From: a virus
Direction: 5' to 3' (one strand)
Virus record (IMG/VR): IMGVR_UViG_3300029309_000011
Location: 11,282-60,793 of that record
Length of the DNA stretch: 49,512 nt
Made by a program: the position numbers and the translations under genes. Positions 1-27,457 of the stretch are shown piece by piece. A model generated the notes under the pieces. It made no database searches and had not been told where the DNA came from. It worked only from the letters and a program-made list of their open reading frames with translations. Numbering within the stretch: the stretch's first letter is position 1; each line of letters begins with the position of its first letter.

Positions 1-251
1 CCTGAGATGATGTTGTTTCCATATAAGAAAGAACCAGCTACTGGTTCACGAATACCGTCAATGTCTACAGGAGGAGCTGCTATGAACGCAATTATGAAGC
101 ATGTCGCTGCTGTAAGTAGGCAGGGGATCATTAAAACACCAAACCAACCAACATATAATCTGTTGTCTGTTGATGTTACCCACTTACACAGGGACTGCCA
201 GCCTGCTAACAACTCGGATTGATTCCGACGTTGTAGAACTGATGTTGCCAT
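1..251 (-). CDS. psbA: Photosystem II D1 protein (partial, C-terminus off the left edge)
   Basis: The reverse strand from an ATG at 251 encodes the N-terminal 83 residues of D1, the reaction-centre core protein of photosystem II in the thylakoid membrane. The recognisable D1 stretches are [16 protein letters not shown] (first transmembrane helix), then [17 protein letters not shown] and LYGNNIIS. The frame stays open to the window edge, so about three quarters of the usual ~360 residues lie outside. Phage psbA genes keep photosynthesis going during infection by replacing short-lived host D1. A terminator-like hairpin lies in the 5' leader (274-295). The long plus-strand frame at 7-222 is its antisense shadow. 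Identification is very secure. Confidence 0.97.
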
Positions 252-12959: not shown

Positions 12960-13151
12960 ATGACAACAGTTACAGAATCAGGTGGTCGCCAGAATATTTA
13001 CTCTGTTGAGCCTCGCACTCAAATAGATCCTAACTATGAAGGTTATCCGTTAGAAGCTGAAAAAGCAAACGGTAGATGGGCAATGATTGGTATTGTTGCT
13101 TTATTAGGTGCTTATACTACAACTGGTCAGATTATTCCTGGCATTTTCTAA
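12960..13151 (+). CDS. hli: High-light-inducible protein 1 (63 aa)
   Basis: Start at ATG 12960 (MTTVTESGG); the frame runs back to a GTG at 12909 but that would span the promoter palindrome. The chlorophyll-binding core EAEKANGRWAMIGIVALLGA is intact with the ExxNGRxAM signature, followed by YTTTGQIIPGIF. HLIPs are one-helix thylakoid proteins of the light-harvesting superfamily that bind chlorophyll and carotenoid and protect photosystems under stress. It leads a chain of four hli genes and has the complete binding motif. Confidence 0.95.
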   Translation: MTTVTESGGRQNIYSVEPRTQIDPNYEGYPLEAEKANGRWAMIGIVALLGAYTTTGQIIPGIF

Positions 13152-13169
13152 ATTACCCCCTTTATTATC

Positions 13170-13277
13170 ATGACTCCTGAAGCAGAAAGATTTAATGGCT
13201 GGGCAGCAATGCTTGGTTTCGTTGCAGCAGTAGGTGCATATGCAACTACAGGTAACATAATTCCTGGCATATTCTAA
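13170..13277 (+). CDS. hli: High-light-inducible protein 2 (35 aa, minimal)
   Basis: ATG 13170 to TAA 13275-13277, overlapping the next ATG. The 35-residue product is almost only the chlorophyll-binding helix: ERFNGWAAMLGFVAAVGA then YATTGNIIPGIF. The usual Arg after NG is Trp (NGWAAM), so the ligand pair E...R is altered, and the N-terminal stalk is absent. It may bind pigment weakly or pair with other HLIPs. Confidence 0.9.
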   Translation: MTPEAERFNGWAAMLGFVAAVGAYATTGNIIPGIF

Positions 13278-13390
13278 TGAATAACAAAGATATTTTTCTT
13301 AAAGCACAAGGCAGAGCAGCAATGATGGGATTCATCGTTATATGTACAGTTTATGGCTTTACAGGACAACTTATACCCGGATTTGTATAA
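13277..13390 (+). CDS. hli: High-light-inducible-like protein 3 (37 aa)
   Basis: Coupled to both neighbours by TAATG overlaps. The core is KAQGRAAMMGFIVICTVYGF then TGQLIPGFV. The GRxAM and TGQxIPG parts are kept, but the Glu and Asn of the ExxNGR signature are missing (KAQGR), and a Cys lies in the helix. It is probably a diverged HLIP whose pigment binding is uncertain. Confidence 0.85.
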   Translation: MNNKDIFLKAQGRAAMMGFIVICTVYGFTGQLIPGFV

Positions 13391-13533
13391 TGGACATTCA
13401 ATCTTATTCTAAACCAATTGAAAAACAAAAAATAATTGCTGAGAGACTTAATGGTCAATTAGCAATGTTAGGTGTAATTGCAGCAGTAGGAGCTTATTTA
13501 ACTACTGGTCAATTAATTCCTGGTTTTGTTTAA
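13390..13533 (+). CDS. hli: High-light-inducible protein 4 (47 aa)
   Basis: Start at ATG 13390, in a TAATG overlap (a longer frame from 13342 would overlap hli3 wholly). The core reads IAERLNGQLAMLGVIAAVGA then YLTTGQLIPGFV. Glu and Asn are present, but the Arg is Gln (NGQLAM). The protein has a short polar N-terminal stalk. It ends in TAATG, overlapping the start of the next membrane-protein gene. Confidence 0.92.
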   Translation: MDIQSYSKPIEKQKIIAERLNGQLAMLGVIAAVGAYLTTGQLIPGFV

Positions 13534-13703
13534 TGATATTAGAAGATTCTTATCTGATATCAAATTTTTCTTCAATCCTATGGGTGTTTTATCCCATAGG
13601 TTGTTTAATTCTTATAGAATTAATTTTACGTGCCATCGATGGTGACGATGATGATGACCAAAGTGGCGGTATCATGACTCCTATTTTTCAAAAAGCAAAA
13701 TGA
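13533..13703 (+). CDS. Small membrane protein with acidic tract, hli operon (56 aa)
   Basis: ATG at 13533 overlaps the hli4 stop. Residues ~12-33 form a hydrophobic helix (SSILWVFYPIGCLILIELIL), followed by RAIDGDDDDDQSGG, an acidic cluster of six Asp, and a short tail. The coupling with hli genes suggests a thylakoid or cytoplasmic membrane role in infected cells. I do not recognise a named family. Asp-rich tails can bind Ca2+, but that is only a suggestion. Confidence 0.7.
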   Translation: MILEDSYLISNFSSILWVFYPIGCLILIELILRAIDGDDDDDQSGGIMTPIFQKAK

Positions 13704-13774
13704 ATCACCTCTATTTCACAGTCTTAATTTCTTTATACATTTTTAGTAATGTAGGATCTGTTGTATTTGCGTGA
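13700..13774 (+). CDS. Tiny hydrophobic peptide (24 aa)
   Basis: ATGA overlap with the preceding gene; ends in GTGA overlap with the next. The product (MNHLYFTVLISLYIFSNVGS then VVFA) is almost wholly hydrophobic. It could be a leaky leader, a short membrane peptide or a signal-peptide remnant. Evidence is only the unbroken chain of overlaps and hydrophobicity. Confidence 0.4.
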   Translation: MNHLYFTVLISLYIFSNVGSVVFA

Positions 13775-13872
13775 ACAGAATTTTTTACAGCCCCTATTAC
13801 TCATTATATGAGTTTATTTTCTTTGTTATTGTAGGTACAATAGCAGGAATGTATGGTTTTTTAGAGGTATAA
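13771..13872 (+). CDS. Tiny single-helix membrane protein (33 aa)
   Basis: GTG start in a GTGA overlap. The product has YSLYEFIFFVIVGTIAGMYG as a single transmembrane helix, ending FLEV. It is of the size of small photosystem or cytochrome b6f subunits, but no family-specific residues are seen. It ends 6 nt before the end of the convergent gene at 13878. Confidence 0.45.
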   Translation: MNRIFYSPYYSLYEFIFFVIVGTIAGMYGFLEV

Positions 13873-13877
13873 ATATT

Positions 13878-14219
13878 TTATTTTTTGTGTTTATGTTGAG
13901 GATAATCTTTAGTCATTGCTTTTTTAGATAAATTAAAAGTATCTCCACCACCTTCATGTCCATGAGCTATTCCTAATTCATGTAATCTTGAGTGTTCTTT
14001 AATTTCATCTCTTAAATTTTTACCACCTTTGCCAAAAGTCATATAAATTCCATAGATCAATAAAAGTAAAACCAGTAAACCAATAAATACAGCAAAAGCT
14101 GCACCTTGACCTAAATTTCCGTGAGGAATAAGAGTTTCTTTGCATTTTTCAATTTTCTCTGCATCTGCCCATGTACCTGGTAAAGTATAAATTGGGGGAC
14201 AAGATAAAAAATAATTCAT
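13878..14219 (-). CDS. Single-pass membrane protein, His-rich tail (113 aa)
   Basis: An N-terminal 35 residues with two Cys (C7, C26) precede a clear membrane helix at about 40-62 (AAFAVFIGLLVLLLLIYGI), and a charged cytoplasmic-type tail with HELGIAHGHEGGG and ending HKHKK. The His-rich motif could bind metal. ATG at 14219 overlaps the preceding gene by ATGA. No established function; it sits next to the hli cluster on the opposite strand. Confidence 0.7.
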   Translation of the reverse strand: MNYFLSCPPIYTLPGTWADAEKIEKCKETLIPHGNLGQGAAFAVFIGLLVLLLLIYGIYMTFGKGGKNLRDEIKEHSRLHELGIAHGHEGGGDTFNLSKKAMTKDYPQHKHKK

Positions 14220-25910: not shown

Positions 25911-26459
25911 TTAACAATCATTGAATTGTTTTGCTACTTGACCACCTATTTCTGATCCTTTATCTTGTGCAAACATGGTGACGAATCCAGCAGCAAGCCA
26001 TCCAATTACTGGTATGTTACTAAAAGCGGGTGCAGCTTTTACTCCCACAGAACCTCCTACAATTCTTCCTGTAGAGTTTCCACTACCTTCTATTTTGATA
26101 CAAGCAACTTTTTTATCATTCATTACGGTTCTCTCTACCTCTTGTTGACCACCACCTTGCATTGTGTAAGTCTCTTTCAAACTCAATGTAGATTCTTTAT
26201 TCCCAAAAAATCCTTTTGGTTCACTTAGATACTTAGTTCTATGTAGAATTTTTGGGTCATTTGCTTTATAACTAATCCTGTATCCATTATCAGTAGCAAC
26301 TATATCGTAAGAGGTATAAGGACCTACAGGTACATTGACATTTGGAAAAGGGTTTTTAATTTTTTTTGTAACTAAAGTGTTCATCAAGGCAATGTTATAC
26401 ACCCCTAAGATGGACACTAAAGCTATTATTCCCCAATTCCTTTTGGGTCTACTATACAT
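25911..26459 (-). CDS. Membrane-anchored protein (182 aa)
   Basis: N-terminal membrane helix after a basic start (RPKRNWGIIALVSILGVYNI), then a beta-rich extracytoplasmic-type domain (YTSYDIVATDNGYRISYKAN, then STLSLKETYTMQGGGQQEVE), and a second hydrophobic segment at the end (IPVIGWLAAGFVTMFAQD). The gene follows the holin-like gene with an 8-nt overlap, so a role in lysis or membrane targeting is possible. Family unknown. Confidence 0.6.
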   Translation of the reverse strand: MYSRPKRNWGIIALVSILGVYNIALMNTLVTKKIKNPFPNVNVPVGPYTSYDIVATDNGYRISYKANDPKILHRTKYLSEPKGFFGNKESTLSLKETYTMQGGGQQEVERTVMNDKKVACIKIEGSGNSTGRIVGGSVGVKAAPAFSNIPVIGWLAAGFVTMFAQDKGSEIGGQVAKQFNDC

Positions 26460-26907
26460 TTTTCTTAGAACTAGTCTCTGTCACTATTTTAATTGGAGCT
26501 TGTTCAATACGCAATATCTGAGTAGGAGCAGATTGTGAAGCCTTCTCTATAAGTTTTTCAAAATCTGCTTTAGTCAGATTTGGAGTCTGATTCTTATCCA
26601 CTTTCATGGTTCCATCTCCTCTTTTACGTGCCGCATCTATTCCAAAACTACTAAGACATCCCGTCAAAATCGAAGCCGGGAAAGTGATATCCTTGGGTTC
26701 ATTTGCATAACCAGGAATAGAAATGTAATTTAAACTGACGATAAATCCACTCCAAGCAACTACAACAAGTCTTACTACGACTGAGATAAAGGCTAATTGC
26801 TCTTCTTTGTCATCAAGGTTTTCTTTAATTTTTGTAAAAACATTTTTCTTCTCTTGTGTTTTAGAAGAATCTTTTGAATTGTCAATCATTTTATATCCGT
26901 AATACAT
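26452..26907 (-). CDS. Holin-like membrane protein (151 aa)
   Basis: Start chosen at ATG 26907 (MYYGYKM); TTG 26943 and ATG 26889 are alternatives. After a charged start, residues ~50-75 form a hydrophobic helix (LAFISVVVRLVVVAWSGFIV), and a second hydrophobic part follows (FPASILTGCLSSFGI). The short segment between them and the charged Lys-rich end are typical of phage holins. The C-terminal 60 residues are polar. Context near the lysozyme-like gene supports a lysis role, but it is not proven. Confidence 0.5.
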   Translation of the reverse strand: MYYGYKMIDNSKDSSKTQEKKNVFTKIKENLDDKEEQLAFISVVVRLVVVAWSGFIVSLNYISIPGYANEPKDITFPASILTGCLSSFGIDAARKRGDGTMKVDKNQTPNLTKADFEKLIEKASQSAPTQILRIEQAPIKIVTETSSKKNV

Positions 26908-26959
26908 ACTAAGTTTACCCTCATGTAAACTTATGTATAGCAATTAATAGGTACTAAAA

Positions 26960-27457
26960 ATGCGGAAGTTCTTTCCTTTATTGATATTGATATTTGCACC
27001 AGTAGCTAAAGCAGATATCACTCATAAATTATCTAGTAGTGTTCAACTCTCAGTCAATGCTGCCGCTACTCAGGTAGAGAGAATTGGTAATAGCTATAGT
27101 GTTTCTGGAAACAATGTAACAACTCAATATACTCCAGATGGTGGGTCAGCTACTAACTCAATTGGATCTTTGACAATATCTTCAGGGGTAGGTTCAATAC
27201 CAGCATTATCAGCGGTTCAGGCTACAGCTGGCGAAAGTTTTAGTTTTAGTCAGACATTTACCCAAGCAGATGCTTTAGTTACCAGTGCTCCAAGTACAGG
27301 TGCTGTAAGTGCTTTATCTAATCAAACTTCAACAGCAGCAGGGGTTGCAGGATCATTGGCAGGTACAATCGACTCATCTTCAACATTGACTTTAACAGCT
27401 GGGGGAGCAGGAACAACAGCAACAGGACAATTTGTTAGTGAAATTTCAATAAGATGA
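26960..27457 (+). CDS. Exported Ser/Thr/Ala-rich protein (165 aa)
   Basis: A clear signal peptide: MRKFFPLLILIFAPVAKA followed by a DITHKL mature start. The mature part is low-complexity Ser/Thr/Ala/Gly with beta strands (VSGNNVTTQYTPDGGSAT), and has no Cys. It starts a rightward set of three coupled genes. Secreted proteins are uncommon in phages; it could coat or alter the host envelope. Function unknown. Confidence 0.7.
   Translation: MRKFFPLLILIFAPVAKADITHKLSSSVQLSVNAAATQVERIGNSYSVSGNNVTTQYTPDGGSATNSIGSLTISSGVGSIPALSAVQATAGESFSFSQTFTQADALVTSAPSTGAVSALSNQTSTAAGVAGSLAGTIDSSSTLTLTAGGAGTTATGQFVSEISIR

Follow-up and report, generated by a model that had tools for sequence, protein, structure and literature searches.

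It is established that cyanophages carry psbA and hli genes; we know of no protein partners described for the action of HLIPs during infection. In Synechocystis, HliA and HliB have in common with Psb34 an N-terminal sequence by which they are believed to attach to CP47, and they pair with the short, arm-less HliC (PMC9458560, PMC12142464); Psb35 stabilises HLIPs on CP47 (PMC11449106). On the phage side, hli arrays, psbA and surrounding hypothetical genes have been described from cyanophages, with hli03 and psbA listed as core (PMC3037559). On the host side, the multi-copy hli genes of MED4 are located on genomic islands and believed to stem from phages (PMC2663038), and host hli and PTOX rise in MED4 during P-HM2 infection in the light (PMC5082946).

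The locus described here lies in a 49,512-nt stretch of DNA (the window) taken from a linear virus record of 82.5 kb. Seven consecutive frames at 12960-13872, all on the plus strand, form a chain of tiny membrane-protein genes (Table 1). As an earlier note on this DNA had it, four hli genes are followed by genes for three other small proteins, here called P5, P6 and P7, and all seven are present as open reading frames of the lengths that it gave. The gap between hli1 and hli2 is 18 nt; from the hli2 stop onward every junction overlaps, again as the note had claimed, by 1 nt (TAATG) or 4 nt (ATGA or GTGA), an arrangement of the kind associated with translational coupling.

Table 1. The hli chain and its landmarks in the window
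Feature	Position	Strand	Product	Best match or annotation
psbA (D1), 5' part	1..251	-	gene continues outside window (G000:10567-11439)	PF00124, E 7.9e-81
hli1	12960..13151	+	63 aa, complete EKANGRWAM, N-terminal extension TVTESGGRQNIYSVEP	phrog_178, E 3.7e-26
hli2	13170..13277	+	35 aa, ERFNGWAAM (Arg to Trp)	phrog_178, E 1.6e-19
hli3	13277..13390	+	37 aa, LKAQGRAAM (Glu to Leu, Asn to Gln, Arg kept)	phrog_178, E 1.2e-12
hli4	13390..13533	+	47 aa, ERLNGQLAM (Arg to Gln; Glu, Asn kept)	phrog_20629, E 3.1e-21
P5	13533..13703	+	56 aa, one predicted transmembrane helix, tail GDDDDDQSGGIMTP	phrog_7843, E 2.1e-21
P6	13700..13774	+	24-aa hydrophobic peptide	mostly unannotated in relatives
P7	13771..13872	+	33-aa hydrophobic peptide, GTG start, ...EFxFFxxVGxxAGxxG...	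T4-GC 594 where annotated
Convergent gene	13878..14219	-	113 aa, PsbN-like segment	phrog_8051, E 3e-21

Pooled over four related loci (the window, L026, L030 and L062), dN/dS was 0.12 for hli1, 0.00 for hli2, 0.07 for hli3, 0.05 for hli4, 0.27 for P5, 0.19 for P6 and 0.10 for P7; frame-shifted controls over the same loci lay clearly above the real frames, at 0.43 or more where computable. Purifying selection acts on all seven genes, and the low values relative to the shifted controls mean that even the two smallest peptides, of 24 and 33 aa, are selected as proteins. We had considered that the short frames might be decay products or non-coding, which these values rule out, and, against the earlier note's own refuting case that the trailing peptides are not translated, P5-P7 evolve as protein-coding genes. 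Since gene order and junctions also recur in relatives (below), the chain is beyond chance. No Rfam match was found along it. Inside the P5 gene a perfect 8-bp hairpin (13577-13600) is followed by a T-rich stretch, and four close relatives of this locus (L012, L026, L030 and L062) have predicted hairpins like it; the hairpin overlies conserved codons, and protein conservation alone may account for its recurrence.

All four hli products are HLIPs by profile (best hits phrog_178 or phrog_20629, E 1.2e-12 to 3.7e-26) and have the small size (35-63 aa) and single helix of the family, with hydropathy maxima of 1.45-1.68 over 19 residues. The chlorophyll-binding motif ExxNGRxAM is complete in hli1 alone, as had been noted, and the canonical pigment sites are altered in hli2, hli3 and hli4. 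The replacements first listed were right for Trp in hli2 and Gln in hli4 and wrong in giving "Lys/Gln", because hli3 has Glu replaced by Leu and Asn by Gln. Nor are the proteins of 35-37 residues minimal, as the note had called them: 35-47 aa is a normal size class, and 35-aa copies occur in hosts and cyanopodoviruses. The hli2 DNA is 86% identical to hli of P-SSP2/P-SSP3 and MED4-213, and its NGW class, present in most cassettes, recurs in phages and hosts, which argues against decay of hli2; hli3 orthologues likewise occur in both viruses and hosts. The degenerate motifs are conserved classes rather than decay. A recurrent C-terminal variant was seen in viral hli4-type HLIPs (L011, L058, L064, L086 and L102), which end in TGHMFFG, not TGQxIPG. 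The hli1 N-terminus resembles the NCBIfam Psb34 model NF033486 at E 0.014 and 15.3 bits, under the cut-off of 45; with this score, and carrying the chlorophyll motif, hli1 is not a member of Psb34. Its N-terminal arm alone found no match in PDB. The products of hli2-hli4 have no such arm.

P5 belongs to phrog_7843 both by profile match and by its position right behind hli, and is annotated in cyanomyoviruses as a hypothetical protein, T4-GC 437 or 273. An AlphaFold2 model predicts a single helix at residues 11-36, with core pLDDT about 90, and a low-confidence acidic tail. We considered phrog_905 as a separate acid-tail gene of phages and rejected it, the search merely recovering P5. A 53-aa Prochlorococcus protein (L235:974-1135, minus strand; L238:811-972) has a P5-like acidic tail (DDDD..GGLMQP) and matches PsbW weakly, below threshold (E 0.0011). 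P5 and P7 matched nothing in Pfam, NCBIfam (Psb34 included) or the PDB chains, and were therefore rejected as members of a known photosystem subunit family; the PDB search yielded no solved structure containing either of them. A literature search found no functional study of the trailing peptides.

A P5 profile scan of IMG/VR gave 492 confirmed relatives, 80 of which we read; these are the closest relatives, so the sample favours similar cassettes. Every distinct viral locus whose upstream sequence reaches 900 nt or more, 61 in all, has hli genes just upstream of P5. A P6 relative follows P5 in 57 of the 76 distinct viral loci from these closest relatives (exactly 24 aa long in 52 of those 57), and 61 of the 76 have a P7 relative. 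psbA is present in 16 of the 17 P5-bearing records tested, the lone exception being a 119-kb fragment, and in all nine of the complete phage genomes. The earlier note had proposed a search for the trailing peptides beside hli and had taken their occurrence in phages without hli or psbA as telling against its idea; the viral counts bear out the association with both genes. By tblastn, relatives of P5, P6 and P7 sit side by side in T4-like cyanomyoviruses, and the same cassette is found in P-SSM2/3/4/7, P-HM2, MED4-213, P-TIM68, S-SSM4, P-RSM6 and IMG/VR contigs; annotations of these myoviruses usually miss P6 and sometimes give P7 as T4-GC 594. Several cyanomyoviruses also have, after the last hli and before P5, a tiny conserved, unannotated frame (PVPLKxVPYIF...; L006:2826-2915, L007:2723-2818, L008:2677-2763).

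The window phage itself is of another kind. Its terminase shares 67.5% identity over 90% with the terminase of S-EIVl (KJ410740), a freshwater phage of Synechococcus, beyond which there were next to no matches in the phage collection searched. S-EIV1-like phages are recognised by a homologous terminase and replication genes, the latter judged here from the S-EIVl annotation, which includes a family A DNA polymerase and a primase, and the terminase would place the window phage in this lineage. The chain is a conserved cassette common to two phage lineages, T4-like cyanomyoviruses and the S-EIV1 lineage.

Parts of the cassette are also found in host chromosomes. The P5 profile found 106 relatives in host contigs, and the 80 of these 106 that were listed are all from Prochlorococcus or related Synechococcaceae; of 81 Prochlorococcus genomes, 61 have a P5 match at E<1e-10, and P7 is present in 13 of the 18 searched, at one to three copies apiece. 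The search beside hli that the note had called for succeeds here too, the gene order being hli-P5-P7-hli in MIT9302, hli-hli-P5-P7-hli in AG-449-G23 and NGW-hli, P7, P5 in AG-409-I11. In most genomes host P5 lies away from hli, so that it may have a role independent of hli. In 16 loci it is followed directly by PTOX (plastoquinol oxidase, AOX family), whose frame is in pieces in three of them. Host P7 follows a P6-like 64-aa protein in some genomes, and solitary copies lie beside an apt-like gene. The occurrence of these homologues in hli clusters and beside PTOX fits a role in the photosynthetic membrane. One 189-kb contig filed as Prochlorococcus, AG-418-C09 (L115, L183), carries a complete viral-type cassette and is probably a cyanomyovirus in a single-cell assembly.

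Around the chain, the start codon of psbA, a minus-strand gene, is at window position 251. The gene convergent with P7 resembles PsbN at scores under both curated cut-offs (Pfam E 2e-4, 21.6 bits against 25; NCBIfam E 0.0032, 17.2 bits against 70), and we do not count it as PsbN; it is possibly linked to the cassette in function. All T4-like phages of Prochlorococcus are reported to have a PsbN-like gene (PMC3037559). Farther on, at 25911-27457, three genes match phrog_605, phrog_2714 and phrog_564. Judged by eye, P-TIM68 has counterparts of the first two proteins immediately after P7 (L011:3555-4567), and L183 has a protein resembling the third close to its cassette, which suggests that these genes and the cassette form a larger shared module.

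The altered motifs of adjacent HLIPs tend to change together. In a first sample, all 20 cassettes with a Glu-less HLIP also held a non-Trp Arg-less HLIP, compared with two of the 41 without a Glu-less HLIP. When more distinct adjacent pairs were sampled, 45 of the 47 with a neutral residue in place of the hli3 Glu had also lost Arg from the following HLIP, and five of the seven that kept an acid in hli3 kept Arg in the following HLIP; these pair counts ignore kinship and few independent lineages are visible in them, and the search pattern for hli3 fixed GR, so the constancy of the hli3 Arg is built into the sample. The exceptions were two neutral/Arg and two Glu/Tyr pairs, and in a further six neutral cassettes no adjacent partner was found; the exceptions comprise a V-type group in which no neighbour lacks Arg, and a single host genome that keeps Glu and has Tyr in place of Arg. 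Strict complementarity, which the 20 of 20 in the first sample would have allowed, was given up in view of these exceptions. With few independent lineages and such exceptions, the covariation is suggestive, a lead towards hli3:hli4 heterodimers rather than proof of them.

We propose that the chain is a translationally coupled phage HLIP photoprotection cassette, with a docking hli1, partners hli2-hli4 and host-related companions P5-P7 that stabilise or position the HLIPs, and give this reading a probability of roughly 55%. By analogy, hli1, with its N-terminal arm like that of HliA, HliB and Psb34, would dock on CP47-containing PSII assembly or repair intermediates. The arm-less, HliC-like helices of hli2-hli4 would form heterodimers with hli1 or with one another, binding chlorophyll and dissipating energy during insertion of the phage D1 encoded by psbA, and the single-helix P5, P6 and P7 may stabilise or position the HLIPs, as Psb35 does in Synechocystis. 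The thylakoid location, PSII docking, heterodimers, helper role and photosystem binding are what we infer from the sequences. The earlier note had suggested that the trailing peptides could be unrecognised photosystem-associated subunits, an idea that is partly supported; coding selection, linkage to hli, co-occurrence with psbA and the host hli/PTOX context speak for this, and the failure to match Pfam or PDB speaks against it. Because the chain recurs in unrelated viruses and parts of it are found in the host, P5-P7 are probably genuine partners of the photosynthetic machinery that have been overlooked. A bolder version, which we offer tentatively, sees in P5-P7 unrecognised small subunits of the photosynthetic apparatus of Prochlorococcus, or factors in its assembly, delivered by the phage with obligate heterodimeric, charge-complementary HLIPs as a self-contained photoprotective assembly complex.

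Several other explanations touch parts of this proposal. One would add to it: the Glu and Arg changes in hli3 and hli4 could mark an obligate asymmetric hli3:hli4 heterodimer that holds one Glu-Arg pair and has fewer sites for pigment. The pair counts above point that way, but the few lineages and the exceptional pairs and partnerless cassettes weigh against it, as does hli2, whose NGW product is an alternative partner, and we regard this form of dimer as doubtful. The placement of host P5 directly upstream of PTOX and its solitary position in most genomes, together with the solitary P7 copies beside the apt-like gene or behind the P6-like protein, would instead suit P5-P7 as thylakoid or plasma-membrane microproteins for electron flow (for example to PTOX or PSI), neighbours of hli through light-stress co-expression only. 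The unbroken hli link in the phage sample and the host hli-P5-P7 clusters make this rather unlikely, though a reading to be kept in mind.

Less probable still is that P5-P7 are lysis or host-takeover membrane peptides hitch-hiking with hli and without any tie to photosynthesis. Phage lysis and takeover modules do often contain small single-helix proteins, but P5-P7 belong to widespread Prochlorococcus chromosomal families found near hli and PTOX, and every complete P5-bearing phage genome tested has psbA. That the degenerate HLIPs are decaying duplicates, and P6 and P7 chance ORFs, we find scarcely credible: the full motif is confined to hli1 and both peptides are very short, but dN/dS is 0.00-0.19 for the genes concerned over the four loci compared, phages and hosts alike have the NGW class, and P6 holds its exact length across most viral loci.

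As far as our literature search shows, the conservation and selection of P5-P6-P7, their host families and context, their occurrence in an S-EIV1-like phage and the Glu/Arg pattern are new. A conserved, mostly unannotated trio of microproteins that travels with hli in two phage lineages and is present in Prochlorococcus genomes supplies concrete candidates for HLIP partners, and HLIPs with changed Glu and Arg residues are suggested to be functional classes with defined partners.

The likeness of the proposed photoprotection cassette to Psb34 and Psb35 is that of small single-helix proteins linked to HLIPs; P5 and P7 lie outside the Pfam and NCBIfam families, hli1 has only a weakly Psb34-like N-terminus, and Psb35 is likened by role. 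With HliA/HliB-HliC on CP47 in Synechocystis it shares one armed HLIP and short arm-less HLIP partners, whereas the phage partners are of 35-47 aa with Trp, Gln or Leu at the Glu/Arg positions, and their interaction is a proposed one. Among phages, P-SSM4 (PSSM4_177-181) and P-SSM2 (PSSM2_272-279) have the same succession of hli genes, P5 (T4-GC 437/273) and P6/P7-like frames, the last mostly unannotated in such T4-like cyanomyoviruses, with psbA a few kb downstream in the same genome; the window phage differs from them in its S-EIV1-like terminase and in having psbA ~13 kb away on the opposite strand. S-EIVl, close to it in terminase, has neither psbA nor P5-P7 in its genome and a single weak HLIP-profile match, whereas the window phage carries both and looks like a marine member of the S-EIV1 lineage bearing photosynthesis genes.
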